A DNA stretch of 64,000 bases. Source: Bacteroidales bacterium. Lineage in GTDB: Bacteria > Bacteroidota > Bacteroidia > Bacteroidales > JAIOZK01. This document shows positions 24,801 to 61,644 of the stretch, piece by piece (position 1 is the first letter of the stretch; each line of letters begins with the position of its first letter). Made by a program: the position numbers and the translations under genes. The stretch spans positions 62,001 through 126,000 of the forward strand of contig JAIOZK010000007.1 in assembly GCA_021740625.1 (NCBI GenBank), written 5' to 3'. A model generated the notes under the pieces. That model had not been told where the DNA came from. It made no database searches and saw only the letters and a program-made list of their open reading frames with translations.

Positions 24801-24948
24801 ACTACCCCGCCGCAGAGCAGCGGAGTATCAAAAGAAAAAACTTGTCCGCCTTCTGGCGGATTAAATTGCGCCCCAAGGGGCGGGGAACCTAACTGCCCTG
24901 CCTGGCCGGCAGGCAAGTTAAACCCTTGTCCGCCTACTGGCGGATTAA
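24801..24948. repeat. GC-rich modular palindromic repeat (copy 1)
   Basis: A chain of small palindromes: ccgccgcagagcagcgg, cttgtccgccttctggcgg, gcgccccaaggggcggggaac, ctgcctggccggcaggcaag and a second cttgtccgcctactggcgg. The same modules recur at 42966-43040 and, in near-complete form on the opposite strand, at 54698-54808. It is intergenic in all three places and behaves like a REP-type family. Confidence 0.75.
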
Positions 24949-25006
24949 AAAAGGCTGACCCAAATTTTGGTAAATGAGGCAGCCTTGATTTTAATTGTTT
25001 TCCGTT

Positions 25007-40016: not shown

Positions 40017-40025
40017 TTCTAATAT

Positions 40026-40300
40026 TGAAACGATGCTGCGCCTTTCGACATTATTTTGAATATCGAATATCGAATTTCCAATGTCGAATATCGAAGTGAT
40101 GCTATGCCCGTTCGACATTCGAAATTTTTTGAATAACGAATATCCAATATCCAACGTCGAATATCGAAGTGACGCTATGCCCGTTCGACATTGGTTATTC
40201 ATTATTCGACATTCGAAATTTTTTGAATAACGAATATCCAATATCCAATGTCGAATATCGAAGTGATGTAGTACCCGTTCGACATTCGTTATTCTTTTTT
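40026..40300. repeat. tandem array of ~66-94 bp units
   Basis: Four related units, each with the sequence cgaagtgatgctatgcccg followed by ttcgacatt and then gaataacgaatatccaatatcc. The anchor cgaagt occurs at 40092, 40165 and 40259 (73- and 94-bp steps; the longer unit holds an extra gttattcattattcgacatt), with a diverged copy beginning near 40026. Units are full of small palindromes. The array ends at the stop codon of the HdeD gene. Confidence 0.8.
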
Positions 40301-40831
40301 CAGTGTTTTCAGGTTGATGGAGTAGAGGGTAATGAAAAGACCGAAAATAATGGCAAATATCCCCACCAGGTAAGTTACCGCAACAGCTCCTTCGAATGGA
40401 TTGATGAACAGAATGATCGAGAATACGATCACGATCAGGGCGTTCAGGAACATCATCCATCGTGATTTGTTCTCACGGTTGGCGTTCATCGCATTCACCA
40501 GTTGGGAAAAACCCACCGAAATGGCCCAGATGGCCAGGATGATGATGAAGATGTCAATGGAGAATTCAGGAAAGAAAATGATTACCAGTCCGATCAAGAT
40601 ATCAAAGATCCCTTCGTACAACCAGTTTCGCCAGGATTTGCTGTGATCTTTATGCGTCAATGCCCCGGTGATCAGGAAAATACCACCGATGATGATGACA
40701 ATCCCGAAATAGATCATAAGCGTGATCAGGGTGGTGCCCGGCATGGCCACGGCAAAAATACCAAAGATTATGGCAAGCAATCCTTTCAGGGTCAGCAGCC
40801 ACCAGTTTTTAAAAGGTTTTTGTTTTTTCAT
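40289..40831 (-). CDS. HdeD/DUF308 family membrane protein
   Basis: A 180-aa membrane protein with six predicted helices in three pairs (LLTLKGLLAIIFGIFAVAMP, LIYFGIVIIIGGIFLITGAL and similar), the DUF308 arrangement named for E. coli HdeD of acid resistance. A role in acid stress is by name only. The start is the ATG before KKQKPFKNWW; an upstream in-frame TTG/Met adds three residues. It follows the LysE gene by 2-11 bp, probably as one operon. Confidence 0.85.
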   Translation of the reverse strand: MKKQKPFKNWWLLTLKGLLAIIFGIFAVAMPGTTLITLMIYFGIVIIIGGIFLITGALTHKDHSKSWRNWLYEGIFDILIGLVIIFFPEFSIDIFIIILAIWAISVGFSQLVNAMNANRENKSRWMMFLNALIVIVFSIILFINPFEGAVAVTYLVGIFAIIFGLFITLYSINLKTLKKE

Positions 40832-42855: not shown

Positions 42856-42965
42856 AAGATTTATGTTTTGGTTTGTTTATCCGGGAATTATACAAAACAA
42901 ATCTAATAAATATATCTATGAAAACCAAATATTTGTTACTTTATGAATTGCATTAACATCTGTAT

Positions 42966-43040
42966 TAATCCGCCAGTAGGCGGACAAGGGTCTAACTTTC
43001 CTGAATACAGTCGGGTTCCCCGCCCCTTGGGGCGCTATTT
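42966..43040. repeat. GC-rich modular palindromic repeat (copy 2)
   Basis: Contains taatccgccagtaggcgg-acaaggg and ggttccccgccccttgggg-cgctatt, the same modules as at 24801-24948 (reverse orientation) and 54698-54808. It is part of the 470-bp gap between the 71-aa gene and the EEP gene. Confidence 0.7.
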
Positions 43041-43049
43041 AGAGTCTGT

Positions 43050-47888: not shown

Positions 47889-48646
47889 AAGTACTGATCG
47901 TTGAAGATGAACCAATGACAGCCGACAGGCTGGGAAAAATGCTTAACGAAATCAAACCAGGGATTGAAATTCTTGCACAAACGGATACGGTGGAAGATAC
48001 GGTTGCATGGCTGAAAAATCATACCGAACCCGATCTCATCCTCCTGGATATCCATCTGGCGGATGCATCCAGCTTTGAAATTTTCAAACAGGTGGAGGTG
48101 AACTGCCCGGTGATTTTTACCACGGCTTACGATCAGTATGCCATACAGGCCTTTAAGGTCAACAGCATCGATTATTTGCTGAAACCCGTCAAAAAAACGG
48201 AACTGGCCGAAAGCCTGAAGAAACTGGAAAAGCTGCAAAGATCATCCGGACAAATCCTGGATTATTCAAAATTGCCCGAACTGCTTGGAAAAGAAAATGT
48301 GGAATACCGGAAACGCTTCATGATCCGCATTGGCTCACAGTTCAGGGTTGTGGCCATCGAAGCGGTGGCTTATTTCTACATCGACCAGAAGATCGTATAT
48401 CTCACAACGAAAGACAATCATCATTATCCGGTCGACCAGAGCCTTGATCAATTGGAGGAACAGCTTGACCCCGAACGTTTCTTCCGGATCAACCGGGCCT
48501 TTATCGTCAGCATAGATTCCATTGACAAAATGATCGCCTATTCCAAATCCCGTGTGAAAGTAAAACTAAATCCACCCTGCGAACTGGAATCCATCACCAG
48601 TACCGACAGGAGCGGGGGGTTTAAGGAATGGCTGAAAGGGAAGTGA
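47885..48646 (+). CDS. LytTR family response regulator
   Basis: A 253-aa regulator: receiver domain with acidic pair E7-D8, phosphoacceptor Asp55 in LILLDIHLAD and conserved Lys in YLLKPVKKTEL, then a LytTR DNA-binding domain (RFMIRIGSQFRVVAIEAVAYFY-type core, FRINRAFIVSIDSIDKM). It is the partner of the overlapping LytS-type kinase. Targets unknown; yceI and the EEP gene in the same unit are candidates. Confidence 0.95.
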   Translation: MKVLIVEDEPMTADRLGKMLNEIKPGIEILAQTDTVEDTVAWLKNHTEPDLILLDIHLADASSFEIFKQVEVNCPVIFTTAYDQYAIQAFKVNSIDYLLKPVKKTELAESLKKLEKLQRSSGQILDYSKLPELLGKENVEYRKRFMIRIGSQFRVVAIEAVAYFYIDQKIVYLTTKDNHHYPVDQSLDQLEEQLDPERFFRINRAFIVSIDSIDKMIAYSKSRVKVKLNPPCELESITSTDRSGGFKEWLKGK

Positions 48647-48674
48647 AATAAATAGAAGTCTCTCAGTCAAAAAA

Positions 48675-50996
48675 TCACTTCTTTTTCCTGTACCGCTTTC
48701 TGGGAGTATTCTTCGGGTCTTCGGCAATTTTGTAGCAATCTTCCAGGCTCAGTTTTTCTGGATCCTGGTCTTTGGGAATCTTGAAATTCTTTCTTCCGAT
48801 CTTGATATAAGGTCCATACCGGCCTTTCAGAACTTTTACTTTCTTATCTTTATCAAATTCACGTATGGTATTTTCACTTGCCTTTTTTCTTTTTTCTTCG
48901 ATCAGTTCGATGGCTCGCTCCTGGCCAATGCCAGCGGGATCATCTTCTTTCTTCAGTGAAAAGAACTGGTTGTCGTGCCGCACATACGGACCAAAACGGC
49001 CGATGTTCACCGTCAGCTCTTTTCCTTCATATTCACCGATAGACCTGGGAAAATCGAAAAGCTTCAGGGCCTCTTCGAGGGTGATGGTCTCTATGCTCTG
49101 TCCTTTACGCATCCCGGCAAACTTCGGCTTTTCTTCGCTTTCGGTATCCCCGATCTGCACCATGGGGCCATAACGCCCGATTTTGGCAAAGACGTTTTTC
49201 CCGCTTTCCGGATCTTTTCCCAGCAAGCGTTCCCCGCTGAATTTTTTCGTTTTCTCAGCCGTTTCCTGTATCTTATCATGAAAGGGACTGTAGAATTCCC
49301 CGATCATCTTGTTCCATTTTTTATCCCCTGCAGCGATCTCATCAAATTCTTTTTCAACCTTGGCCGTAAAGTTGTATTTCATGATGTTGTTGAAGAACTG
49401 CATCAGGAATTTATTGACCAGGGTCCCCAGGTCGGTAGGAAAAAGCTTGCCCTTTTCCACCCCGCTCATTTCCTTTTTCTTCTGCTCACTGATCTTGTCG
49501 CCCTGGAGGGAAATATAATCATACTCACGGAATTCGCCATTGCGATCTTCTTTCACCACATATTCCCTTTTCTGGATGGTAGAAATGGTTGGTGCATAAG
49601 TTGAAGGTCTGCCAATGCCGAGTTCTTCCATTTTTTTCACCAGGCTGGCCTCGGAGTATCTTGGAGGATGTTTGGTGAATCGTTCGGTGGCCAGCATTTC
49701 TTTCAGGTCAAGTTCATCGCCTTTTTTCAGGGGAGGCAATACACCGGCTTTTTCTTCCTGTTCATCATCATCCCTGCCTTCCAGGTAAACTTTTAAAAAA
49801 CCATCAAATTTTATGATCTCCCCTTTGGCAACAAGTTTTTCTTTCGAAGTTGAAATACTGATATCAACATTTGTCTTTTCGATTTTGGCCTCCGCCATCT
49901 GTGATGCCAGCGTTCTTTTCCAGATCAGTTCATAAAGCCTCTTTTCCTGGACATTGCCTTCCACCTGCCTTTTGTTCATAAATGTAGGGCGGATGGCTTC
50001 GTGTGCTTCCTGGGCTCCCTTGCTCCGGGTCCTGAATTGCCGCGTTCTAACATATTCATCACCATACAGGGATTTTATTTCCTGGCTGGCCTGGGCCATG
50101 GCCATTTTCGAGATGTTTACCGAATCCGTTCTCATGTAAGTGATCTTCCCGGATTCGTAGAGGTTTTGCGCGATGCGCATGGTGTTGGCCACTGAAAATC
50201 CAAGCTTCCGGCTGGCTTCCTGCTGCAGGGTAGAAGTAGTAAACGGAGGTGCGGGGGATTTTTGGGCAGGCTTCTTCTCTACCTTGTCTACCTTAAATTT
50301 AGCTCCCTGACAGGATTTCAAAAATTCAAGTGCTTCCTCTTTGGTTTTGAAACGTTTCGGCAATTCGGCATTGACGATCTTTTGTCCTTTGCCTTCTTTC
50401 AGGATCAACTGTGCTGTAATCCTGTAACTGGAAGTCTTTTTAAAATTCCGGATCTCCTCTTCCCGCTCCACGATCAGCCTTACGGCCACCGATTGCACCC
50501 TTCCGGCAGAAAGGCCCGGTTTCACTTTTCTCCAGAGGAGCGGTGATAATTCATAACCAACCAGTCTGTCGAGGACGCGCCTGGCCTGCTGGGCATTCAC
50601 CAGGTTTTTATCGATCTGCCTTGGGTTTTTGATGGCTTCATCAATGGCCGTTTTGGTGATCTCGTGGAAAACAATCCGTTTAGTCTTGTCTTCTTTGATC
50701 TTCAGGGCGTTCACCAGGTGCCAGGAAATGGCCTCCCCTTCACGGTCTTCATCCGTTGCCAGCCAGATCCATTCAGCATCCCTGGCTGATTTTTTCAGAT
50801 TCGTGACAACCTTTTTTTTGTCGGGAGATATTTCATACTTAGGCTCAAAACCATTTTCAATATCCACACTCAGATCTTTTTTCGACAGGTCCACTACATG
50901 TCCCATGCTTGACATCACGGTGTAATCTTTGCCGAGAAATTTCTCTATGGTCCTCGCTTTGGCCGGTGACTCAACTATTACAAGATTCTTTATCAT
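48675..50996 (-). CDS. topA: DNA topoisomerase I
   Basis: A 773-aa type IA topoisomerase that relaxes negative supercoils. TOPRIM domain LVIVESPAKARTIEKFLG at the N terminus with ATDEDREGEAISWHL; active-site Tyr in ITYMRTDSVNIS; GRVQSVAVRLIVERE. The C terminus has three short repeats of the FGRYGPYVxxG type (KIGRYGPMVQIG, NIGRFGPYVRHD, LKGRYGPYIKIG) instead of Cys4 zinc fingers, and a basic tail. Confidence 0.97.
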   Translation of the reverse strand: MIKNLVIVESPAKARTIEKFLGKDYTVMSSMGHVVDLSKKDLSVDIENGFEPKYEISPDKKKVVTNLKKSARDAEWIWLATDEDREGEAISWHLVNALKIKEDKTKRIVFHEITKTAIDEAIKNPRQIDKNLVNAQQARRVLDRLVGYELSPLLWRKVKPGLSAGRVQSVAVRLIVEREEEIRNFKKTSSYRITAQLILKEGKGQKIVNAELPKRFKTKEEALEFLKSCQGAKFKVDKVEKKPAQKSPAPPFTTSTLQQEASRKLGFSVANTMRIAQNLYESGKITYMRTDSVNISKMAMAQASQEIKSLYGDEYVRTRQFRTRSKGAQEAHEAIRPTFMNKRQVEGNVQEKRLYELIWKRTLASQMAEAKIEKTNVDISISTSKEKLVAKGEIIKFDGFLKVYLEGRDDDEQEEKAGVLPPLKKGDELDLKEMLATERFTKHPPRYSEASLVKKMEELGIGRPSTYAPTISTIQKREYVVKEDRNGEFREYDYISLQGDKISEQKKKEMSGVEKGKLFPTDLGTLVNKFLMQFFNNIMKYNFTAKVEKEFDEIAAGDKKWNKMIGEFYSPFHDKIQETAEKTKKFSGERLLGKDPESGKNVFAKIGRYGPMVQIGDTESEEKPKFAGMRKGQSIETITLEEALKLFDFPRSIGEYEGKELTVNIGRFGPYVRHDNQFFSLKKEDDPAGIGQERAIELIEEKRKKASENTIREFDKDKKVKVLKGRYGPYIKIGRKNFKIPKDQDPEKLSLEDCYKIAEDPKNTPRKRYRKKK

Positions 50997-51274
50997 CTTT
51001 TTCCTTTCTGCCTGCTAAAAATTTCGGGCTACAAAAGTATAAATTTCATTAATCTTACAAATCGGGCTTTTTTTACCTTAATACTTTTAACGGATAAAAT
51101 GTCCTCAGTCGGGAGCGTAAAATTCCGGATTTCTGGTTTCGGATTCCGTATTGGGAATTTCATTCATGATTGAATTTACTTACTGTCATTATGGATATTC
51201 AGTAAACCCCATTCCTGAATCCGGAATTCGAAACCTGGAATCAAAAGAATCATGATCCTTAAACAAATTTCTTG
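50997..51274. other. intergenic region with inverted 'aattccggatt...tggtttc' repeat
   Basis: A 278-bp gap between topA and ppa. It holds the inverted pair attccggatttctggtttc (51122 on) and gaatccggaattcgaaacctgg (51218 on), about 75 bp apart, of the kind scattered between Bacteroidota genes. No gene, tRNA or clear promoter is seen. Confidence 0.45.
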
Positions 51275-51946
51275 CTACACTGTCTTCAGCGCCGAATCCA
51301 GTGTATCAAATTTATGGAAGTAGTCCTCCATGGATCTTCTGATCACCTCGTGGGCTTCGTCTATCCCAAAGGTATGGGTGATCTCCACATCGCTTTGCTT
51401 GCCCGGGAGGTCTTTATAGGTGAGAAAATAATGTTTCAGCCGGTCGATGACCAGATCGGGGCAGTCGGAAATATCTTTGTAATCGCCATACACTGCATCA
51501 TTGTTCAATACGGCAATGATCTTATCGTCCGACTGGTTGGAATCCAGCATTCTGAAACCCCCGATGGGTCTTGCCCGCACCAGGATATCCCCATGAACGA
51601 TTTCTTTTTCGGTAAGGATGCATATATCAATGGGGTCACCATCTCCATGGATATCATCCCGTCCTGTTTTTTCCATACAGAATTTCGCTACTTCTTTGCC
51701 GCTGTATGTTTGCGGAACAAAGCCATACAGGGCAGGTACCGTATTGGAATACTTTTGCGGGCGGTCGATTCGGAGGTACCCGGTTTCCTTATCCACTTCA
51801 TATTTAACTGTATCGGTGGTCACCATTTCGACAAAGCATATCAGTTTTTCAGGAGCTTCCTTGCCGATGTCGACCCCATGCCAGGGATGTGATTTATAAC
51901 GCAATCCCATCAGTCTGCCAATGGGATCCATGATCTTGTTCGCCAT
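51275..51946 (-). CDS. ppa: inorganic pyrophosphatase (class I)
   Basis: A 223-aa soluble pyrophosphatase. The signature DGDPIDICILTE with its Asp metal ligands is present, with KYEVDKETGYLRIDRP, YGFVPQTY and the final LKHYFLTYKDLPGK. It is about 45 residues longer than E. coli Ppa, mainly at the N terminus, as in other Bacteroidota. Confidence 0.95.
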   Translation of the reverse strand: MANKIMDPIGRLMGLRYKSHPWHGVDIGKEAPEKLICFVEMVTTDTVKYEVDKETGYLRIDRPQKYSNTVPALYGFVPQTYSGKEVAKFCMEKTGRDDIHGDGDPIDICILTEKEIVHGDILVRARPIGGFRMLDSNQSDDKIIAVLNNDAVYGDYKDISDCPDLVIDRLKHYFLTYKDLPGKQSDVEITHTFGIDEAHEVIRRSMEDYFHKFDTLDSALKTV

Positions 51947-52110
51947 TTATGTTGATTTTTAGTTTTTTGCAAAGATAGGGAAAGTTTGCAGGAAGCCGGG
52001 AAACGGAGAACCTTCAAATGCTTTAGCCGAACAGGAAGCGCGAGAGCAAGCGTTTCGCTGGGAAAGGAACTTAACAGGCAAGAGACCAGCACACTATTTG
52101 GATAGCCACT

Positions 52111-53142
52111 CTAGAAAACCCTTCTTGCCAGACCCGGCCCGGTCGCCTTACAAAATCCATAAGGAAGCTTTTTCCATATCTTGTTCAGAAAACCAAACTT
52201 CCTGATATTCCTGCCTTGCGGATGCGAATGGTTCCAGTACAAGGGCAAATCTTCGGTTCCCCATTGTTTTTTGTATTGATGCGTACCGGAATTGAAAGTG
52301 CTTCGCCCGAAAGAATAAGTATCGGCATTTTGACCAATGGCATACTGGATCATGTTCCATTGAAGGATGTAAGAAGGATACAGTGTATTGAATTTATCCA
52401 GTGTGGCGAAATAAATGTTTTCCCAAAAATTCTTATAACCAAGCAGAAGAGATGCACCAATTGGTTTTTTTCCGCGGTAGGCTATAAAAATTTTTCCTTT
52501 TTGCCCGGGATAAGATTTTATCAGCCTGGTATAGAAATCTTTCCTCAAAAAAGGAGATCCCAGGCGATGCATGTTTTTGCTGAAAACTTCATAAAAATCA
52601 TCTGCCAGTTCCTGTCTTCCTGTTTTCACCATGATCCCGTTCTTTTCCGCTTTGCGAATCTTTCGCCGGAGGTTGGAGCTGAAAAGAGCAAATTGCTCCT
52701 CCGGATCCACGGCAGGCCTTATCAGGCTCATTACCTTATCCCGGTAAACATTATCTGTGAAAGGTATAAAACTGCGCACTTGCCAGCAAAGGTCTTTTTT
52801 GTTTTTGTAAGCCATCACCGGCAGGGCATCCCTGATCTCCTGCAAGGGTATAATAATCTTTTGCTTTTTTGAAAGATTGTTTTCCAGCTCTTCCACCAGC
52901 AATGACATCAATCCATCCAGTTCCCCCACGCTGAATTGATCGGAGAGGTTTCCCAGCCCAATCACCGATCCATGCGGCACAGAAACCCATTGCCTGCCAA
53001 CCCGGACAAATGGTAATTGTGCGATCTCCTTTTCCCCTTCCCGTATCAGGCCCATGCGATACTTCCAGTCGAAATATTCTGCTATAAATCCACTGAAAAC
53101 AGGATCATTGTAAATCGTATATACGGGCAGAGAGGATTGCAT
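52111..53142 (-). CDS. FemAB/GNAT-like acyltransferase
   Basis: A 343-aa protein with two GNAT-like halves. The C-terminal half is typical of FemAB-type aminoacyl/acyl transferases found beside exosortases and capsule genes: ENGIMVKTGRQELADDFYEV, GSPFLRKDFY, IFIAYRGKKPIGASLLLGYK and the closing STFNSGTHQYKKQWG. Its neighbour is the exosortase gene, with only a 9-bp repeat array between. A role in modifying surface polysaccharide or a cell-wall precursor is inferred from family and context. Confidence 0.78.
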   Translation of the reverse strand: MQSSLPVYTIYNDPVFSGFIAEYFDWKYRMGLIREGEKEIAQLPFVRVGRQWVSVPHGSVIGLGNLSDQFSVGELDGLMSLLVEELENNLSKKQKIIIPLQEIRDALPVMAYKNKKDLCWQVRSFIPFTDNVYRDKVMSLIRPAVDPEEQFALFSSNLRRKIRKAEKNGIMVKTGRQELADDFYEVFSKNMHRLGSPFLRKDFYTRLIKSYPGQKGKIFIAYRGKKPIGASLLLGYKNFWENIYFATLDKFNTLYPSYILQWNMIQYAIGQNADTYSFGRSTFNSGTHQYKKQWGTEDLPLYWNHSHPQGRNIRKFGFLNKIWKKLPYGFCKATGPGLARRVF

Positions 53143-53198
53143 GTTGCAAAGGTTTTATGCGAATGTAAGGAAAAAATTCTTCGAACGAAGTGACTTTG

Positions 53199-53340
53199 GC
53201 GAATGAAGAGAACGAAGCGAAAAAAGCGAACGAAGCGAACGAAGCGAATGAAGCGAATGAAGCGAACGAAGAGAACAAAGAGAACAAAGCGAACGAAGCG
53301 AACAAAGCGAACTGAGCGAACGAAGCGAATGAAGCGAATA
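53199..53340 (+). repeat. 9-bp tandem array 1 (unit gcgaacgaa)
   Basis: Fifteen near-identical 9-bp units plus a partial unit, with variants gcgaatgaa, gagaacaaa and gcgaacaaa. Because 9 bp is three codons, all frames stay open and give false low-complexity frames. It faces array 1R, so the two can pair. Confidence 0.95.
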
Positions 53341-53355
53341 ATGGCCGAAAATATC

Positions 53356-53429
53356 GCTTCGTTCACTAAAGTCGCTTCGTTCGCTTCGTTCGCTCAGTTC
53401 GCTCAGTTCGCTCAGTTCGCTCAGTTCGC
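53356..53429 (-). repeat. 9-bp array 1R (inverted: cttcgttcg)
   Basis: Eight units (cttcgttcg, ctcagttcg) in the opposite orientation to array 1, only about 15 bp away, giving a potential stem of about 70 bp. It overlaps the last ~20 codons of the exosortase gene and supplies its Arg-Thr-Glu tail. Confidence 0.95.
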
Positions 53430-53992
53430 CAAAACCTCTCAACCCAAACCATCCACAACACAAAGATCACTACATAATAGAAAGGTCTGAGAACCCACAT
53501 ATGTGCAAAGTCCCAGCGTTCGGGCCACCACACCAGGATATAAGTGAGGGAGACGATACGAAATACATTCACGAAAAATATCAGGACCATGCCCATGGGG
53601 ATATACCAGATCTTGTGTTTCCACGGCCCCGGGAATATCAGCAGCAGGAAAAACAACTGGTAAAATTGTTTCAGTCCGGAGCAACTGGGAACGATCTGAA
53701 TGTAGGTACCATTAAAATACAGGGTATCATTGTAACCATTGTGAATAAAACCAAAAATATTTTCCAGGCTCCAGCTTGAGGAAAGATACACCCAGTGTGC
53801 CAGCACATCGGCCCAATCTTTCAGGAAAGAGGTGGGTGTCCATTTCCACAACCAGTTCCACCAAAGCAGGTGCAGGCCCAGGGTAATGATGGCAAAAAGG
53901 GCCACATCCACCAGCGATTGCAGGCCTTTTTCATTGATCTTTTGCCTTGCCAGGTTGATCTTTTCTCTGATTGGCTCAAACATGCTTTTCAT
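53366..53992 (-). CDS. exosortase/archaeosortase family protein
   Basis: A 208-aa integral membrane protein with about six helices. The three catalytic residues of the family are visible: Cys104 in VPSCSGLKQFYQ, Arg145 in FVNVFRIVSLTY and His164 in WDFAHMWVLRPFYY. Exosortases cut C-terminal sorting signals and join the cargo to an envelope glycan or lipid. The core ends near WVERF; the last 20 residues are an Arg-Thr-Glu repeat encoded by array 1R. The frame is also open upstream through array 2, but MKSMFEPI (53992) is the first sensible start. It lies in a polysaccharide locus. Confidence 0.88.
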   Translation of the reverse strand: MKSMFEPIREKINLARQKINEKGLQSLVDVALFAIITLGLHLLWWNWLWKWTPTSFLKDWADVLAHWVYLSSSWSLENIFGFIHNGYNDTLYFNGTYIQIVPSCSGLKQFYQLFFLLLIFPGPWKHKIWYIPMGMVLIFFVNVFRIVSLTYILVWWPERWDFAHMWVLRPFYYVVIFVLWMVWVERFWRTERTERTERTERTKRTKRL

Positions 53993-54029
53993 TTTGGGGC
54001 GTAAAGATAGGGTTTTATCTTCGAAGGGA

Positions 54030-54160
54030 GCGAATGAGGCGAACAAAGCGAACGAAGCGAACAAAGCGAACGGAGCGAACGAAGCGAACGGAGTGAACGG
54101 AGGGAACGAAGGGAACGAAGGGAACGAAGCGAATGAGGCGAACAAAGCGAACGGAGTGAA
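54030..54160 (+). repeat. 9-bp tandem array 2 (unit gcgaacgaa)
   Basis: Fourteen units with variants gcgaacgga, gggaacgaa and gcgaatgag, directly upstream of the exosortase start. In-frame translation on the minus strand gives a false Phe/Ala/Ser-rich extension of the exosortase. Confidence 0.95.
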
Positions 54161-54189
54161 GTGTGGTTAGTTATTGCTAAGCTTAGTCA

Positions 54190-54246
54190 CTTCGTTCGCT
54201 CCCTTCGCTCAAGTCGCTTCGTTCGCCAAAGTCGCTTCGTTCGCTA
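54190..54246 (-). repeat. 9-bp array 2R (inverted)
   Basis: Six units (cttcgttcg, ctcccttcg, ccaaagtcg) inverted to array 2 across about 30 bp. It ends four bases before the stop codon of the second four-helix-bundle gene. Confidence 0.9.
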
Positions 54247-54249
54247 AAA

Positions 54250-54630
54250 TCACCATTTCCAGTTCTCCGAATTACTGCTCATCATTACCAACATTGCAAG
54301 TATATGATCGTATTTATCATATAATTCAAGATATGTTTTCTCCTGAATATATTCACCTTTAAAGGCATAGTCTAGCCAGACCTGTGTTTCAGCAGCCTCT
54401 CCTTCGCTATCAGATAATTTGGAAATAAAGTATCTCGGGTATCTTCTTTTTCGAAATGCTTCAGCAATATTCCCTGAAACTGATCTTGATGACCTCCTGA
54501 TCTGATCCGTCAGGGAGTAAGTCTCAAATTTGGGAAAGGTTTTTGAAATTTCAAAAATTTCCATACCAGCCTCAAATGAAAGCTGAAATACCTTTAGTTC
54601 ACGATGCGTTCTGATTTTTGTTGTTTTCAT
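54250..54630 (-). CDS. four-helix-bundle protein (second copy)
   Basis: A 126-aa S23/four-helix-bundle family protein: ELKVFQLSFEAGMEIFEIS, YSLTDQIRRSSRSVSGNIAE, AFRKRRYPRYFISKLSDSEG, AETQVWLDYAFKGEYI. These are the strongly conserved family motifs (S-x-N-I-A-E), better kept than in the copy at 39.6 kb. Function unknown. It sits between inverted 9-bp arrays and a palindromic repeat, while the other copy also lies among repeats. Confidence 0.92.
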   Translation of the reverse strand: MKTTKIRTHRELKVFQLSFEAGMEIFEISKTFPKFETYSLTDQIRRSSRSVSGNIAEAFRKRRYPRYFISKLSDSEGEAAETQVWLDYAFKGEYIQEKTYLELYDKYDHILAMLVMMSSNSENWKW

Positions 54631-54697
54631 AGGATGTTGGGGTTTTATCGTAAAAATAATATTAACTGCCGAAAAAACCTAACCAATAATATGAACT

Positions 54698-54808
54698 TTA
54701 ATCCACCATTAGGCGGACAAGGGTTTAATTCCCCGCCCCTTGGTGCGCTATTTAATCCACCATTAGGCGGACAAGTTTTTCCTTTTGATACTCCGCTGCG
54801 GGGTAGTT
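54698..54808. repeat. GC-rich modular palindromic repeat (copy 3)
   Basis: Reverse-strand version of copy 1: actaccccgcagcggagtat, aaaacttgtccgcctaatgg, gcgcaccaaggggcgggga and a second cttgtccgcc module in the same order. Compared with 24801-24948 it shows the family's module order is kept between sites 30 kb apart. Confidence 0.8.
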
Positions 54809-54831
54809 CATTCTACAAAGAGAGCTCATCC

Positions 54832-54916
54832 CTTCGTTCGCTTCGTTCGCTTTTTTCGCTCCGTTCGCTCCGTTCGCTCCGTTCGCTCCGTTCGCTTAGT
54901 TCGCTTAGTTCGCTAT
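54832..54916 (-). repeat. 9-bp array 3 (cttcgttcg orientation)
   Basis: Nine units (cttcgttcg, ctccgttcg, cttagttcg) with no facing partner nearby; it could pair with array 2 or array 1. It lies just downstream of the terminator of the 34-aa gene. Confidence 0.9.
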
Positions 54917-54941
54917 AGTCGTTTATTTCACTTCCCCCGCA

Positions 54942-54970
54942 CAAAAAAAGGCCCCGATTTACAGAGCCTT
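54942..54970 (-). terminator. rho-independent terminator
   Basis: On the minus strand AAGGCTCTG-TAAAT-CGGGGCCTT forms a fully paired 9-bp stem (two G-T pairs) with a 5-nt loop, followed by TTTTT. It lies 34 bp after the stop of the 34-aa reading frame. Confidence 0.8.
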
Positions 54971-55003
54971 GCATTTTTCTCTTTTACGATCCTTACCGGA
55001 AGT

Positions 55004-55108
55004 CTATCGTTTTTCCTCCGCTTCGCTTCCGTTTCCAAAAATCGGTTCATTTACTTTTGAGTATACGAGAAAAATCAGTGCTGCTGCAGTTACCATTGTT
55101 AAAATCAT
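55004..55108 (-). CDS. 34-aa membrane peptide
   Basis: A very short gene: hydrophobic N-terminal helix (MILTMVTAAALIFLVY), then a polar, acidic/basic tail (SKVNEPIFGNGSEAEEKR as far as the stop). It is preceded by a strong Shine-Dalgarno (aaaggag) seven bases before the ATG and followed by an intrinsic terminator, both rare enough here to suggest real expression. No family recognised. It is a single-gene unit inside the exopolysaccharide locus. Confidence 0.5.
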   Translation of the reverse strand: MILTMVTAAALIFLVYSKVNEPIFGNGSEAEEKR

Positions 55109-55237
55109 CACTCATCTCCTTTGTTAAGTAAATGTTAGTTAAATATGTTTACATATGTTAAGAAATTAACGGGAAAATGAAAATGAAAATTGCGTGAAAT
55201 TCAACTATTTATACTCAATTCAAAATAGGGGGAGACA

Positions 55238-55469
55238 GCCACGAATGCACGAATGAATTTGGGACTCAATCTTACCCTTGAGGCGAGATCGAGTCCCGGG
55301 CTTCGACCCCCCAGACTTGTACAACGTCCAGCCTGACGTAGCGTCTCAACCAGCGAGAGCTTCGCTGAACAGTCTGTTCACCATTCCAGATTCCCTACCC
55401 AGCGAAACCCTCGCCGGCCTCCAAACCAACATACCAATTAACAAACAATTCTATTCGTGCATTCGTGGC
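55238..55469. mobile_element. MITE-like element with 17-bp perfect terminal inverted repeats
   Basis: Begins with gccacgaatgcacgaat (55238-55254) and ends with its exact reverse complement (55453-55469), 232 bp in all. No coding frame. The interior holds gactcaatctt...gagatcgagtc and cagcgagagcttcgctg palindromes. The last ~80 bp have an inverted, diverged copy at 59370-59455. The rest of the 54631-55498 gap holds copy 3, array 3 and the 34-aa gene. Confidence 0.6.
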
Positions 55470-55498
55470 CAATTATCCTTATTTTTGATCCCGGAACA

Positions 55499-56350
55499 AT
55501 GAACATCCTCACTTTCGACATAGAAGACTGGTTCCATATCCTGGGGCATCCCATCAACAACGACATCAGCCGCTGGAAGGATCAAAAGAGCAACCTGGAG
55601 GAAAATATCGATAAGATCCTTGGCTTGCTGCTGGAGCATCAGCAAAAGGCAACCTTTTTTGTCCTGGGATGGATCACAGAGCGTTATCCACAGAGCATCC
55701 GGAAGATCAGCGAAGCCGGTTTCGAGATCGGAAGTCATACGCACTCGCACAGGAGAATAAAGGAATTTTCTCCCCGGAGCTTCCTGCAGGATGTGGAAAG
55801 ATCGATCAAAATAACAGAGGATACCCTTGGAAAAAAAGTGAAGAGTTTCCGTTTCCCCGGGTTTCAGATCAGCACAGAATACCTCTGGGCACTCGAAACC
55901 CTATCTGATCTGGGAGTTGAATTCGACAGCTCGGTACAGATCAATTACCAGAATACCCGCATGCAGTATAAGTCATATCCAGTATACCTGGAAGTGAACG
56001 GGCATCGCCTGAAGGAGTTTCCCGTTCCAGTCAGGTACTTGTTCGGCCAGATCGTCTTCAGGAGTGGAAGCGGATTTTTCAGGTTTTTCCCTTACCGGTC
56101 AACAAAAACATTTCTCAAAAGGAACAACTACAACCTGTTGTATTACCATCCAAGAGACTTCGACATTGAAATGCTTGATGAAGAGAATTATAATTTTTTG
56201 AGAAATTTTAAAAACCGGGCCGGGATCAAATCCTCCATTCCTAAATTTGTAAGATTGCTGAAGGAGTTTGAATTTTCAGATATTCAAACTGCCAATGAAA
56301 AAATTAACTGGGAAGAGAGCCGGGTATTCCGTCATCATGATAAGTATTGA
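55499..56350 (+). CDS. polysaccharide deacetylase family protein
   Basis: A 283-aa cytoplasmic NodB-fold protein of the type found with exosortase/EPS loci. The first motif is LTFDIEDWFHIL (Asp-Asp type), the metal-binding motif is GSHTHSH, followed by KSFRFPGFQIS and YYHPRDFD. It would remove N-acetyl groups from the polymer or a lipid-linked precursor. Start at 55499 gives the standard MNILTFDIEDW N terminus; longer starts lie in the repeat. Confidence 0.88.
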   Translation: MNILTFDIEDWFHILGHPINNDISRWKDQKSNLEENIDKILGLLLEHQQKATFFVLGWITERYPQSIRKISEAGFEIGSHTHSHRRIKEFSPRSFLQDVERSIKITEDTLGKKVKSFRFPGFQISTEYLWALETLSDLGVEFDSSVQINYQNTRMQYKSYPVYLEVNGHRLKEFPVPVRYLFGQIVFRSGSGFFRFFPYRSTKTFLKRNNYNLLYYHPRDFDIEMLDEENYNFLRNFKNRAGIKSSIPKFVRLLKEFEFSDIQTANEKINWEESRVFRHHDKY

Positions 56351-56499
56351 ACGGTGAGCGATGAGCAGAAGCTGCTTTTTATCGGATAAGCAGAAACTAA
56401 ATGAAATCACTACTGTCCGGAAAAACGCATAGAGATTCCTCGGCTTTTCGGAATGACCGTTTATCAGGAGTTTGGGGGAAAAAGCAAAAAAACAATGGA

Positions 56500-56577
56500 A
56501 AGACAATTGCGCAATTGAACAATGAAGCAATTGAACAATCGAACAATTGGGCAATCGAACAAAATAATTGGACATAA
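56500..56577. repeat. tandem caattgaacaat-type repeat
   Basis: Short palindromic words (caattgcgcaattg, gaagcaattgaacaatcg, aacaattgggcaatcg) repeat about every 13-14 bp just upstream of the WecA-type gene. The rest of the 56351-56600 gap has no feature except the promoter-like site. Confidence 0.6.
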
Positions 56578-56590
56578 ATCAAAAATAACT

Positions 56591-56598
56591 TAGTTTTG
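56591..56598 (+). promoter_or_regulatory. -7 element at the WecA-type gene start
   Basis: TAGTTTTG matches TAnnTTTG exactly but ends only two bases before the first ATG (56601). If used, the transcript would begin at about 56605, and the in-frame ATG at 56619 would be the start. Confidence 0.4.
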
Positions 56599-56600
56599 CC

Positions 56601-57710
56601 ATGAATTACCGGGATGATATGGCCGCCTTATTTCAAAACTATGGATTGTTGATTTTTGCGAGCTTCTTGCTTGCTGCTCTGATCACCTATGTAGCTATAC
56701 CCACAGTGATCGATGTGGCCCGGGCCAAGCGCCTTTTCGACGAACCCAACGGCCGGGGATCCCATACCCTGAGTACGCCCACACTTGGAGGACTGGCCAT
56801 TTTCGCAGGTTACGTGATCTCCTCCATGATCTTTATCAACATAGAACTGATCCGGGAAGTGCAATACGTCATTGCCGGTTCCATCATCATTTTCTTCATC
56901 GGACTGAAGGATGATATCATTGCCCTCGATCCTTTGAAAAAACTAATTGGGCAGATCATAGCAGCCGGAATCATCATCGATCTTGGAAATATCAGAATCG
57001 CCAGCCTGCAGGGTTTTATGGGTATTTATGAGATCGACTATTTTTCCAGCGCCATTTTCAGCCTTTTTGTGGTGATCGTGATCATCAACGCCTTCAACCT
57101 GATCGATGGCATCGACGGACTGGCCAGCGGTATTGGCATCCTCACCGCATCTGTTTTCGGTTTCTGGTTTTACCTTGTGGAAGAATACCAGTATTCCATC
57201 CTGGCAGCAAGCCTTGTGGGTGCCCTTTCCACTTTCTTTCTGTTCAATGTTTTCGGGCACAAAAACAAGATCTTTATGGGGGATACGGGTTCCCTGCTAC
57301 TTGGGTTTTTTTCATCCGTACTGGCCCTGAAATTCATCGACCTGAACAGCAGCCTGAGCAACCCCTACAATGTGAATGCAGCACCTACCGTCGCCATAGG
57401 CATTCTCATCGTGCCCCTTTTCGATACCCTGCGTGTGTTTACAATACGGGTCCTTAAAAGGAAATCTCCTTTCAAACCCGACCGACAGCATGTACATCAC
57501 CGTCTGCTAACGCTGGGAAACAGTCATATACAAGCAACCAGCATTTTACTGGGAGCCAACATCCTGTTCATAGCATTGGTATTTCTGCTGCAGCCCATCG
57601 GGATTTACTGGCTTACGATTATCATCCTGACACTGGCCCTGGTACTTTCATACATACCGGTGTATATGGTGAGGAGGAGGAAGGAGAAGGTTGAAAGGAA
57701 AAAGGAGTAA
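56601..57710 (+). CDS. undecaprenyl-phosphate GlcNAc-1-phosphate transferase (WecA/MraY family)
   Basis: A 369-aa polytopic membrane enzyme that starts glycan assembly by moving a sugar-1-phosphate onto undecaprenyl phosphate. Family motifs: GLKDDIIALDPLKK, NAFNLIDGIDGLASG, GDTGSLLLGF and PDRQHVHHRLL (the HxHH-like loop). The sugar is probably GlcNAc or a relative, as in WecA, but is not proven. Possible later start at 56619 (see promoter site). A basic tail (RRRKEKVERKKE) ends the protein. Confidence 0.92.
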   Translation: MNYRDDMAALFQNYGLLIFASFLLAALITYVAIPTVIDVARAKRLFDEPNGRGSHTLSTPTLGGLAIFAGYVISSMIFINIELIREVQYVIAGSIIIFFIGLKDDIIALDPLKKLIGQIIAAGIIIDLGNIRIASLQGFMGIYEIDYFSSAIFSLFVVIVIINAFNLIDGIDGLASGIGILTASVFGFWFYLVEEYQYSILAASLVGALSTFFLFNVFGHKNKIFMGDTGSLLLGFFSSVLALKFIDLNSSLSNPYNVNAAPTVAIGILIVPLFDTLRVFTIRVLKRKSPFKPDRQHVHHRLLTLGNSHIQATSILLGANILFIALVFLLQPIGIYWLTIIILTLALVLSYIPVYMVRRRKEKVERKKE

Positions 57711-57736
57711 GGAAAAAGGCAAAAGGTAAAAAGTTG

Positions 57737-59365
57737 ATGAGATTACTGAGAATACATTTTTCTGCTTTATTGTTTTTCTTGCTGATCATTACAGAAGTTT
57801 CGGCACAGGAGTATAATGCTTATTTAAATAATTCTTATTCCTATACGATCCGCAAAGCGATCAATGTATACGGAAGCCCCGCGCATACCTCTGTCCGGCC
57901 CATGCTTTATTCTGAGGTAAACAAGATCATTGATTACGATTCTGTTCTCATGGCACAGAGCATTCCATCAGAAAGTACTTCGGGTTTTTGGAAAGGATTG
58001 CATAACAGGGTTTTCAATGATCATCTCATCGATGTCAGGAAAAAGGACTTTACTTTCCAGATGGATCCCCTTTTTCATTTTGAAGCAGGAATTGAAAGTA
58101 GCAGTGGCAGTGGCAGTGAGGATATGGAATATGTAAATACAAGGGGATTTCAGATCAGGGGGACCATTGGTGATAAAGTGGGATTTTATTCTTCTTTTTA
58201 TGAGAACCAGGCCAGTTTTCCAGCATACATCGATGATTTCATTGAGAAATATGGTGTGGTGCCCGGGCAGGGCAGGCCGCGAAGTTTTGGCAAGGAAGGC
58301 TATGATTTTGCCATGGCCAACGGATATGTATCTTATTCTCCTTCGAAACATTTTAATTTCCAGTTCGGTCATGGAAAGAATTTCTGGGGCGATGGTTACC
58401 GTTCACTCATCCTTTCGGATAACAGCTTCAATTATCCCTTCCTGAAGATCACCACCGATTTCTGGCGCATCAAATATGTGAATCTTTATGCACAGTTCAT
58501 GGATTATAATGTGCCCCATTCGCACGAACTCGGGTTTCAAAGAAAATACGGTACCCTGCATTACCTGAGCATCAACATTTCCAAAAGGGTTAACCTGAGC
58601 CTGTTCGAAGCCATCATCTGGGAAGCACAGGACAGCACAGGACAAAGGGGGTTCGACATTGCCTACTTAAATCCAGTGATTTTCTACCGCCCGGTGGAGT
58701 TTTCCATCGGATCCCCCGACAATGCCCTGCTGGGACTCAACCTCAGCGTGAAGATCGGTAAACGAAATCTGGCATACGGGCAATTGCTGCTGGATGAATT
58801 CAAAATCAAGGAAGTAACTGCCATGGACGGCTGGTGGGGAAACAAACAGGCTTTTCAGTTGGGCTTTAAATCATTTGATGCTTTTCGAATACCCAACTTA
58901 TTTGCCCAGTTGGAATACAATTACATCAGGCCCTATACTTACGCCCACCGTATCCCCCTGCAGGCCTACGGGCATTACGGGCAGCCCCTCGCTCATCCCA
59001 TCGGAGCCAATACCATGGAGCTGCTGGGCCGGTTCCAGTATCATCATAAACGATTCTATTTTGACTACAAAATATTATTTGCTGTGTATGGCGAGGACGA
59101 AAATGGCCTGAATTACGGGAAGGACATTTTTAAAGATTATGACAGCAGGGCCAAAGACTATGATAATTTCGTGGGACAGGGATTGCGAACCAATTTAACT
59201 TACAACGACATTCGCCTGAGTTACCTCATCAATCCCGCTTACAACCTGAATTTCAGCATTGGGTATATCAACCGCATGCAAAAAAACGATGTGGCCGACA
59301 ATAATATGAATTACTTTTATGTTGCATTGAGAACGTCGATTGAAAATTACTATTATGATTTTTAA
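57737..59365 (+). CDS. RemB/Wzi-like outer-membrane barrel protein
   Basis: A 542-aa exported protein (signal peptide to VSAQE) of the capsule assembly Wzi family, closest in layout to gliding protein RemB: RGTIGDKVGFYSSFYENQ, PSKHFNFQFGHGKNFWGDGY, RSLILSDNSFNYPFLK, and a C-terminal aromatic strand ending YDF. Wzi anchors capsule at the surface; RemB is a mobile surface protein in gliding flavobacteria. Its position in the EPS operon favours polymer attachment. ATG at 57737 is preferred over the TTG just before. Confidence 0.85.
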   Translation: MRLLRIHFSALLFFLLIITEVSAQEYNAYLNNSYSYTIRKAINVYGSPAHTSVRPMLYSEVNKIIDYDSVLMAQSIPSESTSGFWKGLHNRVFNDHLIDVRKKDFTFQMDPLFHFEAGIESSSGSGSEDMEYVNTRGFQIRGTIGDKVGFYSSFYENQASFPAYIDDFIEKYGVVPGQGRPRSFGKEGYDFAMANGYVSYSPSKHFNFQFGHGKNFWGDGYRSLILSDNSFNYPFLKITTDFWRIKYVNLYAQFMDYNVPHSHELGFQRKYGTLHYLSINISKRVNLSLFEAIIWEAQDSTGQRGFDIAYLNPVIFYRPVEFSIGSPDNALLGLNLSVKIGKRNLAYGQLLLDEFKIKEVTAMDGWWGNKQAFQLGFKSFDAFRIPNLFAQLEYNYIRPYTYAHRIPLQAYGHYGQPLAHPIGANTMELLGRFQYHHKRFYFDYKILFAVYGEDENGLNYGKDIFKDYDSRAKDYDNFVGQGLRTNLTYNDIRLSYLINPAYNLNFSIGYINRMQKNDVADNNMNYFYVALRTSIENYYYDF

Positions 59366-59369
59366 AATA

Positions 59370-59455
59370 GCCACGAATGCACGAATAGAATTGTTTGTTT
59401 ACTTGCTGTATTGTTTTGTTGGCTGGCGAGGTTTTCGGTGGGTAGGGAAGCTTGT
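59370..59455. repeat. inverted partial copy of the 55238-55469 element
   Basis: Starts with the same gccacgaatgcacgaat five bases after the RemB-like stop and continues as a diverged reverse complement of 55390-55469 (shared words agaattgtttgtt, ggcgaggtttt, gggtagggaa). The other end is missing or too diverged. The two copies face each other around the deacetylase-WecA-RemB genes. Confidence 0.7.
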
Positions 59456-59588
59456 TTGATAAATGGACTGCTGAGCGAAGTCGAAGTCCTTGATTTGCAC
59501 CTCGACTACGCTCGGTGTGACCGAAGTAAGTGGGTCAGTCCAAGTACATTCCTGCCGGTAAGCAAGGCATAGTTAAAAATTACAACCT

Positions 59589-60551
59589 ATGAAGCATAAA
59601 CAAAAACGATTTGGTTTGATTGGGGCGGCAGGTTACATTGCCCCGCGCCATATGAAGGCCATCAAAGAAACCGGGCATGAACTGCTTGCCGCCCTCGACA
59701 AAAACGACAGTGTGGGCATCATCGATTCTTATTTCCCGGAATCGGACTTTTTTACAGAAACGGAACGCTACGACCGCCACCTGGATAAGTTGAGAAGAAA
59801 AGGGAAAAAAAAGATTGATTATGTCAGCATCTGTTCCCCCAACTACCTGCATGATGCACATATCCGGCTGGCCCTGCGTAACCAGGCCCATGCCATCTGT
59901 GAAAAACCCATCGTACTCAATCCCTGGAACGTGGACGCCCTGCAGGAGATCGAAAAGGAAAGTGGGAAAAGGATCTACAATGTGCTGCAATTGCGGCTGC
60001 ACCCTGCCATCAAAACCCTGAAGGAAAAAGTGGAAAAGGGGCCTCAAGACAAAATCTACGACCTGGATCTTACCTATATTACCAGTCGCGGCCGCTGGTA
60101 CCACATGTCGTGGAAAGGCGATATTCATAAATCAGGGGGCATTGCCACCAACATCGGAGTGCACTTTTTTGATATGATGACCCATGTATTTGGCAAGGTG
60201 AAAAGAAACGATTTGAATTACACCGGAAAAAATACAGCAGCCGGGTATATGGAACTCGACAAAGCCAGGGTCCGCTGGTTCCTCAGCCTCGACCCCGCTC
60301 ATCTGCCGGAAGAAGTTGTGAAGACCGGGCAACGCACCTACCGCTCCATCACCGTGGAAGGAGAAGAGATCGAGTTCAGCGGGGGCTTTACAGACCTGCA
60401 TACGGAACTATACAGGGATATACTATCGGGTGGTGGCTACGGCATGGAAGACGCCCGCAGCAGCATAGAGATCGTGCATCATATCAGGAATGCGGAAGCG
60501 ATCGGGATGAAAGGGGAGTATCATCCTTTGCTGCGAAAGAATCTTTTGTGA
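59589..60551 (+). CDS. wbpB: Gfo/Idh/MocA oxidoreductase, WbpB/WlbA-like
   Basis: A 320-aa NAD-dependent dehydrogenase very like WbpB/WlbA, which oxidises C3 of UDP-GlcNAcA on the way to diacetamido-uronic-acid sugars. Seen: dinucleotide-binding GAAGYIAPRHMKAIKETG, VSICSPNYLHDAHIRLALRN, the catalytic EKPIVLNPWN and the family stretch GGIATNIGVHFFDMM. The other enzymes of that path (WbpA, D, E, I) are not in the window. Its presence suggests an amino-uronic sugar in the exopolysaccharide. Confidence 0.88.
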   Translation: MKHKQKRFGLIGAAGYIAPRHMKAIKETGHELLAALDKNDSVGIIDSYFPESDFFTETERYDRHLDKLRRKGKKKIDYVSICSPNYLHDAHIRLALRNQAHAICEKPIVLNPWNVDALQEIEKESGKRIYNVLQLRLHPAIKTLKEKVEKGPQDKIYDLDLTYITSRGRWYHMSWKGDIHKSGGIATNIGVHFFDMMTHVFGKVKRNDLNYTGKNTAAGYMELDKARVRWFLSLDPAHLPEEVVKTGQRTYRSITVEGEEIEFSGGFTDLHTELYRDILSGGGYGMEDARSSIEIVHHIRNAEAIGMKGEYHPLLRKNLL

Positions 60552-60740
60552 ATGGTCAATGGTGAATAGTGAATAGACAAGACAAGACAAGACAGCTCTT
60601 CACCATTCACTATTGACGGGACAAGATGCCCGAACATTGGTCATCGACAATCGGAAATATCCGGGAATTGTCGATTGTCCATGGTCGATTACTATTCACC
60701 ATTCACTACTCACCACTCACCACTCACTACTCACGATTCA
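60552..60740. repeat. inverted and simple repeats upstream of wza
   Basis: The 304-bp gap after wbpB contains an inverted pair around gaatggtgaatagtgaat (60559 on) and attcactattgacgg / ctattcaccattcacta, a 5-bp tandem (gacaa four times) and a run of ctactcac/caccactcac units. There is no gene; the wza promoter follows at 60791. Confidence 0.65.
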
Positions 60741-60790
60741 CTAACAAAAATTTAACTAGCCCCCTTTACCCCATATTTCAAAAATTCCCT

Positions 60791-60798
60791 TACTTTTG
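60791..60798 (+). promoter_or_regulatory. -7 element for wza-wzc
   Basis: TACTTTTG matches TAnnTTTG exactly, with TTTA about 22 bases upstream as a weak -33 element; start of wza is 58 bases downstream. Confidence 0.5.
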
Positions 60799-60855
60799 CA
60801 CCTATTATATTAAAAGTGTTTATTTTCAATTCGTTCAACCAATAATCAAAACCGG

Positions 60856-61644
60856 ATGAAACATTCCTCACGATATTATTTCAGAATATTTATCATACTG
60901 ATTGCCGGAGCAGCAATATTTTCCTCCTGCGTACCACAGAAAAAGATCAAGTACCTGCAGGTCAAAGAAGAAGCACAAATGCGGGAGAACTTCACCAATG
61001 AAAGGAAAGTAGAATATAAAATACAACCCGGGGATAACCTCTACATCAAAGTGGTCAGCATTGACGAAAAAACAAGTGCACTTTTTAATACCGCTGATAC
61101 CAGAAGTTCTTATGCCATGAACTCGGATGCCGGTATTTACCTGAATAGCTATACTGTGAATGAAAACGGGTATGTGGATTTTCCCCTGATCGGCAGTGTG
61201 AAAGTAAGAAACCTGACCGTGGAGCAGGTAAAAGACGAGCTCCAGAAAACCCTGAATGAATATATCAAAGAATCGGTGGTGATCGTGAAAATGGTGAATT
61301 TTTACGTGACCATGCTCGGAGAGGTCAAAAGACCTGGAGAATACAAGATCTACCAGGACGAGTTGAACATCTTCGAGGCCATATCCCTGGCCGGCGACCT
61401 GACCGATTTTGCCAATCGCGACCAGGTAAAGCTGATCCGACAGACCAAGGAGGGAAGCAAGATCATCGACATCGACCTGACTGACCGGGACATTTTGGCA
61501 TCGGATTACTATTTTATGATGCCCAACGATATTCTTTATTTTGAGCCACTGAAGGGAAAGCAGTTTACCTTTGCCAATTTCCCTTACGGGATCATCTTTT
61601 CAGCCATCTCAACCACATTGTTATTGATTAATTATTTTAAATAA
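60856..61644 (+). CDS. wza: polysaccharide export lipoprotein (Wza family)
   Basis: A 262-aa outer-membrane lipoprotein (lipobox FSSC in AAIFSSCVPQKK). Poly_export domain YKIQPGDNLYIKV, then SLBB-type segments (NENGYVDFPLIGSV and VTMLGEVKRPGEYKIY), and a C-terminal hydrophobic helix (FPYGIIFSAISTTLLLINYF). It forms the export channel for the polymer and works with the Wzc kinase coded 9 bp downstream. Confidence 0.93.
   Translation: MKHSSRYYFRIFIILIAGAAIFSSCVPQKKIKYLQVKEEAQMRENFTNERKVEYKIQPGDNLYIKVVSIDEKTSALFNTADTRSSYAMNSDAGIYLNSYTVNENGYVDFPLIGSVKVRNLTVEQVKDELQKTLNEYIKESVVIVKMVNFYVTMLGEVKRPGEYKIYQDELNIFEAISLAGDLTDFANRDQVKLIRQTKEGSKIIDIDLTDRDILASDYYFMMPNDILYFEPLKGKQFTFANFPYGIIFSAISTTLLLINYFK

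Follow-up and report, generated by a model that had tools for sequence, protein, structure and literature searches.

Facing 9-bp tandem arrays in a Bacteroidales genome as probable hairpin arms of an intergenic S23 element

Palindromic intergenic DNA around a small gene is familiar from REP elements with their REP-associated tyrosine (Y1) transposases. The S23 family has until now been best known from insertions in ribosomal RNA (rRNA). In the intervening sequence (IVS) of Coxiella 23S rRNA, as set out in the sections of PMC4990558 used here, an S23 open reading frame (ORF) lies in a loop closed by a 28-bp stem of inverted ends, within which RNase III cuts, and three tandem heptamers (two in some strains) precede the ORF; the same sections call the function of S23 unknown and the origin of the rRNA IVS unclear. 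S23 is related to Avd of the diversity-generating retroelements, both being four-helix bundle proteins (PMC10053308, in the portion consulted), and intergenic heptamers of the type TAACTGA are described from Beggiatoaceae, Cyanobacteria and Bacteroidetes in the extracts of PMC4679880 on which we draw. Here we consider five tandem arrays, all built from the same degenerate 9-bp unit with the consensus GCGAACGAA, that lie, together with an S23 gene, in a stretch of 64,000 nucleotides (the window) from the genome of a Bacteroidales bacterium (GCA_021740625.1, contig JAIOZK010000007.1, positions 62,001 to 126,000 of the forward strand). Because the Coxiella 23S IVS has the same plan, we read the arrays, with rather more confidence than doubt, as hairpin arms that belong to an S23 element (a cassette resembling an IVS and set among co-directional genes) and to gene-less derivatives of it.

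S23 genes between inverted tandem arms

Many bacteria carry S23 genes with hairpin arms amid their ordinary protein genes, each element having a repeat unit of its own. Arms were recognized by local alignment of the two 350-bp flanks of a gene, the upstream one as it stands and the downstream one reverse-complemented, at cut-off scores (32 and 35) that were chosen after the first 14 loci had been viewed. The genome to which the window belongs (G000) has 14 S23 genes, and matching inverted arms (score at least 35) accompany 11 of them, against nine of 341 other ORFs sampled (p 2e-13). The control was drawn from 346 ORFs of at least 80 amino acids in the window, in locus L002, in part of L001 and in 19 stretches; 13 of the 346 reach 35, and of the five S23 genes in this sample four are among those 13. 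Three of the nine armed ORFs that do not encode S23 (the exosortase gene of the window, a transporter gene in L002 and the gene at 17156 in L001) are next to an S23 or GxxExxY gene, the arrays being common to both. Short tandem arrays were reported by Tandem Repeats Finder on both sides of each of the first eight S23 genes of this genome (L011–L018). The flanks of the S23 gene in the window match each other in inverted orientation with a score of 125, against 16–23 when the upstream flank is set against the downstream flanks of the 13 other S23 loci; flanks of different S23 loci in this genome mostly score 15–25, and the few high scores belong to loci with a similar unit.

The same architecture is found well beyond this genome. 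S23 matches were present in 28 of the 41 genomes of a search among relatives (here and in the next count including the window's own), and 48 of 83 S23 loci from 27 genomes reach a score of 32, against 1.4% of mismatched flank pairs; the 83 include the 14 loci already mentioned, leave out genome G026 and count as unarmed one locus (L094b) that lacks a downstream flank. In a named set representing one S23 clade, made up of the best 80 of at least 584 loci in a species-genome collection, 38 of 77 are armed, against 1.5% of mismatched pairs. By record title the armed loci among these best 80 belong to Bacteroidota, Cloacimonadota, Geobacter, Gastranaerophilales, Ignavibacteriales, Clostridia, Neomarinimicrobiota, Acidobacteria, Acetothermia, Gammaproteobacteria and others, many of the records being metagenome bins, and the labels of several may be wrong. 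A phylum-wide draw gave 11 armed loci among the 30 that were its best matches, against 0.6% of mismatched pairs, and when 148 genomes of the phylum to which the window belongs were sampled (its own among them), four helix bundle S23 genes turned up in 116. Isolates with S23 genes between such arrays include Flavobacterium terrigena DSM 17934 (L123), Geobacter sp. AOG1 (L117) and Adhaeribacter soli (L158). ParE toxin genes, taken as a small-gene control and run through the same script, had arms in none of 28 cases (30 loci, less those dropped for flanks shorter than 100 bp).

Over 97 armed loci the best arm period is 7 in 67, 8 in 22, 9 in five, and 6, 10 and 11 in one each, the distribution for shuffled arms being flat. 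The unit is particular to the element (for example GATTACA at L014, GTTCGATT at L017, CTGCCGA at L015 and GCGAACGAA in the window), and in the upstream arm G exceeds C in 39 of 48 cases. Arms are inherited with the S23 gene: they are shared by all four pairs of armed loci whose S23 proteins are at least 70% identical, by 26 of 96 pairs at 55–70%, by 33 of 974 at 45–55% and by about 2% of pairs at lower identity. When only pairs without a shared neighbour are considered (a label that can also arise from the arms themselves), arms are common to 19 of the 80 whose proteins are at least 55% identical; below 45% the count is 11 of 562 sampled pairs (p 1.6e-11). Save for such close S23 relatives, arms rarely match between loci, and terminal inverted repeats of conserved sequence common to the copies, as expected of an insertion sequence or transposon, were not found in these comparisons. 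A tree of 187 S23 proteins implies at least 48 changes between the armed and the unarmed state, and two S23 lineages without arms have each retained one and the same pair of neighbours, the first in four genomes (L019, L069, L081, L103) and the second in two (L020, L080).

Turnover of the elements can be followed between the genome of the window and the one congener among the genomes compared, G001, which has arrays of other units around its own S23 genes. A run of genes that we take, without a domain scan, to encode an epimerase, CysD, CysN, an SLC13-type transporter and CysC is collinear in the two, at about 80% DNA identity (contigs C44 of G000 and C74 of G001). In the first gap in this run, gene-less facing arrays of the CAAATAA type in G000 stand opposite a broken S23 gene in G001; the second holds one S23 element common to both, with 8-bp arms in each and different higher-order repeats; in the third, both S23 genes and arms differ; and in the fourth, G000 has gene-less facing ATTACAG/AATCTGT arrays where the S23 gene of G001 is truncated and lacks a clear pair of arms. 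The broken S23 genes of G001 lie at 952–1324 and 7582–7815 of L074. A gene-less facing pair lies at 7021–7087 of L002.

Taken as a whole, 169 S23 genes include 147 that are flanked on both sides by genes of their own direction; for controls the figure is 41 of 75 (p 1e-7), one neighbour caller (a simple greedy one, with approximate gene starts) having served for both. These controls were genes for 90–200 amino acids from the window's genome only, and may include one unarmed S23 gene; a looser control gave 133 of 296. At 83 loci the left arm starts at a median of +4 nt from the first base of the upstream stop codon (quartiles –6.5 and +15.5), and within –3 to +10 of it in 24; arm starts were taken from the aligned stretch, and upstream genes from the closest 90-codon open frame. 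That stop codon is TAG in 31 of the 83, against 100 of 413 other genes of the loci, a weak difference (p 0.02) that is likewise seen at unarmed S23 genes (22 of 56).

The locus in the window

The five arrays of one 9-bp unit announced in the original prediction, with about 52 units, are real: the lengths given by Tandem Repeats Finder (140, 76, 125, 53 and 83 bp) amount to about 53 units, and the window has 14 exact copies of GCGAACGAA, where 100 shuffles gave a mean of 0.30 and a maximum of 3. Read along the minus strand, the order is array 3, the S23 gene, array 2R, array 2, the exosortase-family gene running into array 1R, array 1 and the FemAB-family gene. Array 3 (54832..54914, minus strand; about nine units of 9 bp) is the 5', upstream arm of the S23 element, and array 2 (54029..54155, plus strand) is the 3' arm. 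Between them, directly after the S23 stop codon, lies the inner array 2R (54196..54248, minus strand), the 5' arm of a short hairpin that it could form with array 2; the succession of gene, sense array and antisense array is the same at L015. Array 1R (53354..53429, minus strand), at the 3' end of the exosortase gene, and array 1 (53199..53338, plus strand), upstream of the FemAB gene, are the 5' and 3' arms of a gene-less hairpin. Arrays 3 and 2 are thus the outer arms around S23, and 1R/1 and 2R/2 are gene-less hairpins of the same kind. The strands of the arrays bear out the earlier claim that 1 faces 1R and 2 faces 2R. The long transcript hairpins that had been expected before and after the exosortase gene are likewise upheld by folding of minus-strand RNA: 53199–53429 (1/1R) gives –110 kcal/mol (z –10.7, 200 shuffles) and 54020–54920 gives –341 kcal/mol (z –11.1, 20 shuffles). 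In the latter fold array 3, previously called a lone copy, is paired with array 2 around the S23 gene.

The S23 gene itself (54250..54630, minus strand, 126 amino acids), which the original prediction had missed, sits between arrays 2R and 3. Its product matches the 23S_rRNA_IVP family (PF05635, 2.5e-30) and the four helix bundle protein model TIGR02436 (1.6e-27), and has solved relatives in 2gsc and 2rld. The exosortase-family gene (53366..53992, minus strand), whose true start is probably at 53992, exceeds the cut-off of TIGR04178; exosortase X is its best model but falls under the cut-off, and Pfam EpsH is just under. Since this ORF runs to 53366, its last codons are part of array 1R, of which positions 53366–53429 encode the C-terminal tail RTERTERTERTERTKRTKRL. 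The notion that facing arrays bracket the exosortase gene therefore holds for the facing arrays, but not for 1R as a boundary outside the gene. The proposal that a 9-bp period keeps frames open is right here, where 1R lengthens the exosortase, but not as a rule: periods of 7 or 8, which are not multiples of 3, are best in 89 of the 97 armed loci. Nor is the exosortase the focus of the arrays, as had been supposed; the recurring partner is the S23 gene. An exosortase as key partner was rejected on the grounds that arrays follow S23, and that the G001 relative of this exosortase (43% identity, L229), which is at another place in that genome, has no 7–9 bp array in its 3-kb locus.

Genes for a topoisomerase, a pyrophosphatase, the FemAB-family protein, the exosortase and S23 all lie together on the minus strand, the FemAB-family gene (52111..53142) being next in the same direction after the exosortase gene. 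In G001 the pyrophosphatase gene is separated from a polysaccharide export gene by 335 bp (10043–10378 of L237), against 8.9 kb in the window (51946–60856); the FemAB, exosortase, S23 and exopolysaccharide genes of this stretch are missing between those two G001 genes, and a relative of its oxidoreductase gene lies further on in G001.

Members of the 9-bp unit family occur elsewhere in the window's genome, at C47:126487–126657 (minus strand), C47:127460–127567 (plus strand) and C44:154743–154877 (plus strand). Two joined units, with at most one mismatch, were found in this genome only, among the 41 searched, so it is the unit that is private and not the architecture; the search of genome and relatives that had been recommended earlier thus yielded further sites at home and none in the other 40 genomes. 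The two C47 arrays enclose, in inverted orientation, a DUF6266 gene (14487–15567 of L001, equivalent to G000:C47:126487–127567), with an arm polarity opposite to that of S23 elements.

The leader that separates array 3 from the S23 gene contains a palindromic dispersed repeat (54697..54815, no strand assigned) that is not specific to S23 elements. It has further copies at 24817–24949 and 42965–43041 and about ten DNA matches in G001; the palindrome was rejected as a part of the S23 element when the six G001 loci inspected among those with it proved to have no S23 gene. A second S23 gene of the window (39639–40016, plus strand) is followed by GAATATC-type arrays (39639–40301 in all), and a paralogue of it, at C15:354–632, has similar repeats.

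A possible mechanism and its competitors

How might such elements work? We envisage that an element would be sense-oriented, would occupy the end of the upstream gene wherever that gene shares its direction, and would be co-transcribed with its neighbours. Pairing of the arms would give a long stem and leave the S23 reading frame in the loop; if the rRNA case is a guide, RNase III may cut this stem, which would release the S23 RNA and separate the flanking messages. The arms would be carried along with the element, and their units would grow, shrink and drift by repeat slippage, the two arms staying complementary.

Several observations weigh against an IVS-like cassette. The gene upstream of S23 in the window (55457–56350) is on the plus strand, so S23 has no same-direction neighbour on that side, and our confidence, somewhat above even, was for this reason set very slightly lower than it had been. 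No counterpart of the region was found at the corresponding place in G001, and there is no exact empty site there for the element. No rRNA match was detected at positions 48000–60000 of the window, nor in 20 of the best 80 of at least 584 named loci. No arms above the cut-off accompany 35 of 83, 39 of 77 (from those best 80) and 19 of 30 S23 loci in the three sets, and a same-direction context is as characteristic of unarmed S23 genes (52 of 57) as of armed ones (76 of 88), so that orientation is independent of arms. Arms are not private to S23: the same script found them, with other sequences, at 14 of 28 GxxExxY genes (32 loci fetched, 29 tested after three weak matches were dropped, 28 scored), so S23 is not the sole gene with inverted arms, ParE having none. 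Selection at the level of RNA, sought in wobble pairs, was unsupported, as substitutions that keep G–U pairing are not in excess: arm transitions that still pair in sense RNA number 70, against 101 that do not (naive p 0.02, in the opposite direction; 17 versus 15 loci), and matched arms may therefore have a DNA-level or neutral origin.

The GxxExxY genes (PF13366, of the PD-(D/E)XK family; L193–L196, L239–L255 and L258–L265) have arm types that include CACAGAT, AACGGATT, CGCAAAG and CCACATAAG, and one of these genes, at 15755–17144 of L001, has 96-bp tandem repeats on either side.

The cassette reading can be extended, tentatively: such elements may form a widespread mobile class in the protein-coding transcription units of bacteria, and the rRNA IVS would be a special case of it. 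S23 might recognize its own arm units and the element might move, perhaps via RNA as the relationship to Avd hints, into the stop-codon ends of genes in sense orientation; the stem would be cut from the message, the arm pair would co-evolve with S23, and GxxExxY genes would be a second cargo on the same plan. This we regard as a possibility well short of even. If the rRNA cases do belong, as one branch, to a large hairpin-armed S23 family found among protein genes, the question of S23 and the IVS becomes testable in cultured bacteria, and many intergenic 7–9 bp tandem arrays would have a source.

The lack of a wobble excess also fits a mobile element acting at the level of DNA, in which S23 would bind its own arm repeats as DNA (in the manner of iterons), or the arms would be DNA hairpins used in movement, RNA folding being a by-product. 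Arms that go with the protein are what would be seen for a protein and its binding site, and the S23 relative Avd acts in retrohoming (PMC10053308, in the portion consulted); one S23 protein gave a weak match, below cut-off, to the bAvd model. We nevertheless think this rather unlikely, as an orientation bias as strong as 147 of 169 is not what plain DNA insertion would give, except under selection for expression, and an end sequence common to all elements was not found.

Slightly less likely still, in our judgement, is that the site came first, with facing tandem arrays as a general intergenic feature (terminators or spacers) in or beside which S23 genes land. Gene-less facing pairs certainly exist (1/1R, the L002 pair and others), GxxExxY genes and one DUF6266 gene also lie between inverted repeats, and the extracts used of PMC4679880 describe intergenic heptamer arrays of Bacteroidetes with no mention of S23. 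But arm units track the relatedness of S23 proteins even without a shared neighbour (the 19 of 80 versus 11 of 562 given above), and ParE genes, which are small too, are armed in none of the 28 cases. A hairpin comparable to those discussed occurs in 10 of 193 gaps of 60–900 bp in the window's genome (five convergent and five tandem), as counted with a crude ORF caller that hides some hairpins, the window's included, within ORFs. That the genome is simply full of arrays was a separate suggestion, rejected on the same count and because 105 arrays of period 6–30 were found in 457 kb.

Invertible DNA, as first suggested for arrays 2 and 1R, which flank the exosortase gene in an inverted orientation that might allow it to flip, is very improbable: the arms are degenerate, with few identical units in succession, no inversion appeared in the comparisons made, and the general pattern concerns S23 genes. 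An artefact of assembly or binning, which might be thought of for one draft genome of 52 contigs with an element that has no counterpart at its G001 place, can be given hardly any credence, because the same architecture is seen in independent assemblies, isolates included, and the 8-bp element is common to two congeners.

Comparison with described systems

The earlier statement that no element of this form has a name has stood up, none having been found in the literature searched, to which most subscription journals did not belong; the same search found no report that ties S23 genes outside rRNA to arms made of tandem arrays. Unlike REP elements with their Y1 transposases, the element in the window encloses an S23 gene, and its arms are tandem arrays without a sequence common to all copies.

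The TAACTGA heptamers, so far as the extracts of PMC4679880 go, are similar in being intergenic 7-bp tandem units, mostly close before a start codon, with one set directly after a stop codon. They differ in that one unit is used as direct repeats (with one inverted case), other heptamers standing beside it in some Bacteroidetes, whereas the arrays of S23 elements are inverted pairs with a unit for each element and are tied to S23 genes; the terms S23 and four helix are absent from PMC4679880 according to a term search.

Among the closest described systems are the S23-coding IVSs in the 23S rRNA of Coxiella and Leptospira. The element in the window differs from them in lying between protein genes, in having many copies per genome, arrays on both arms and a unit for each element, and in the occurrence of gene-less pairs too. 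The rRNA IVS has its S23 gene in sense orientation in the host transcript; S23 in the window is on the strand of the downstream genes, the upstream gene being opposite, and would probably have such an orientation in a host transcript. An S23 ORF and complementary arms that enclose it are present in both, and tandem units in an arm have a parallel in Coxiella, where, in the sections consulted of PMC4990558, heptamers of strain-variable copy number precede the ORF. Since it does not lie in rRNA we do not class the window element as an rRNA IVS, but by its anatomy it is IVS-like.

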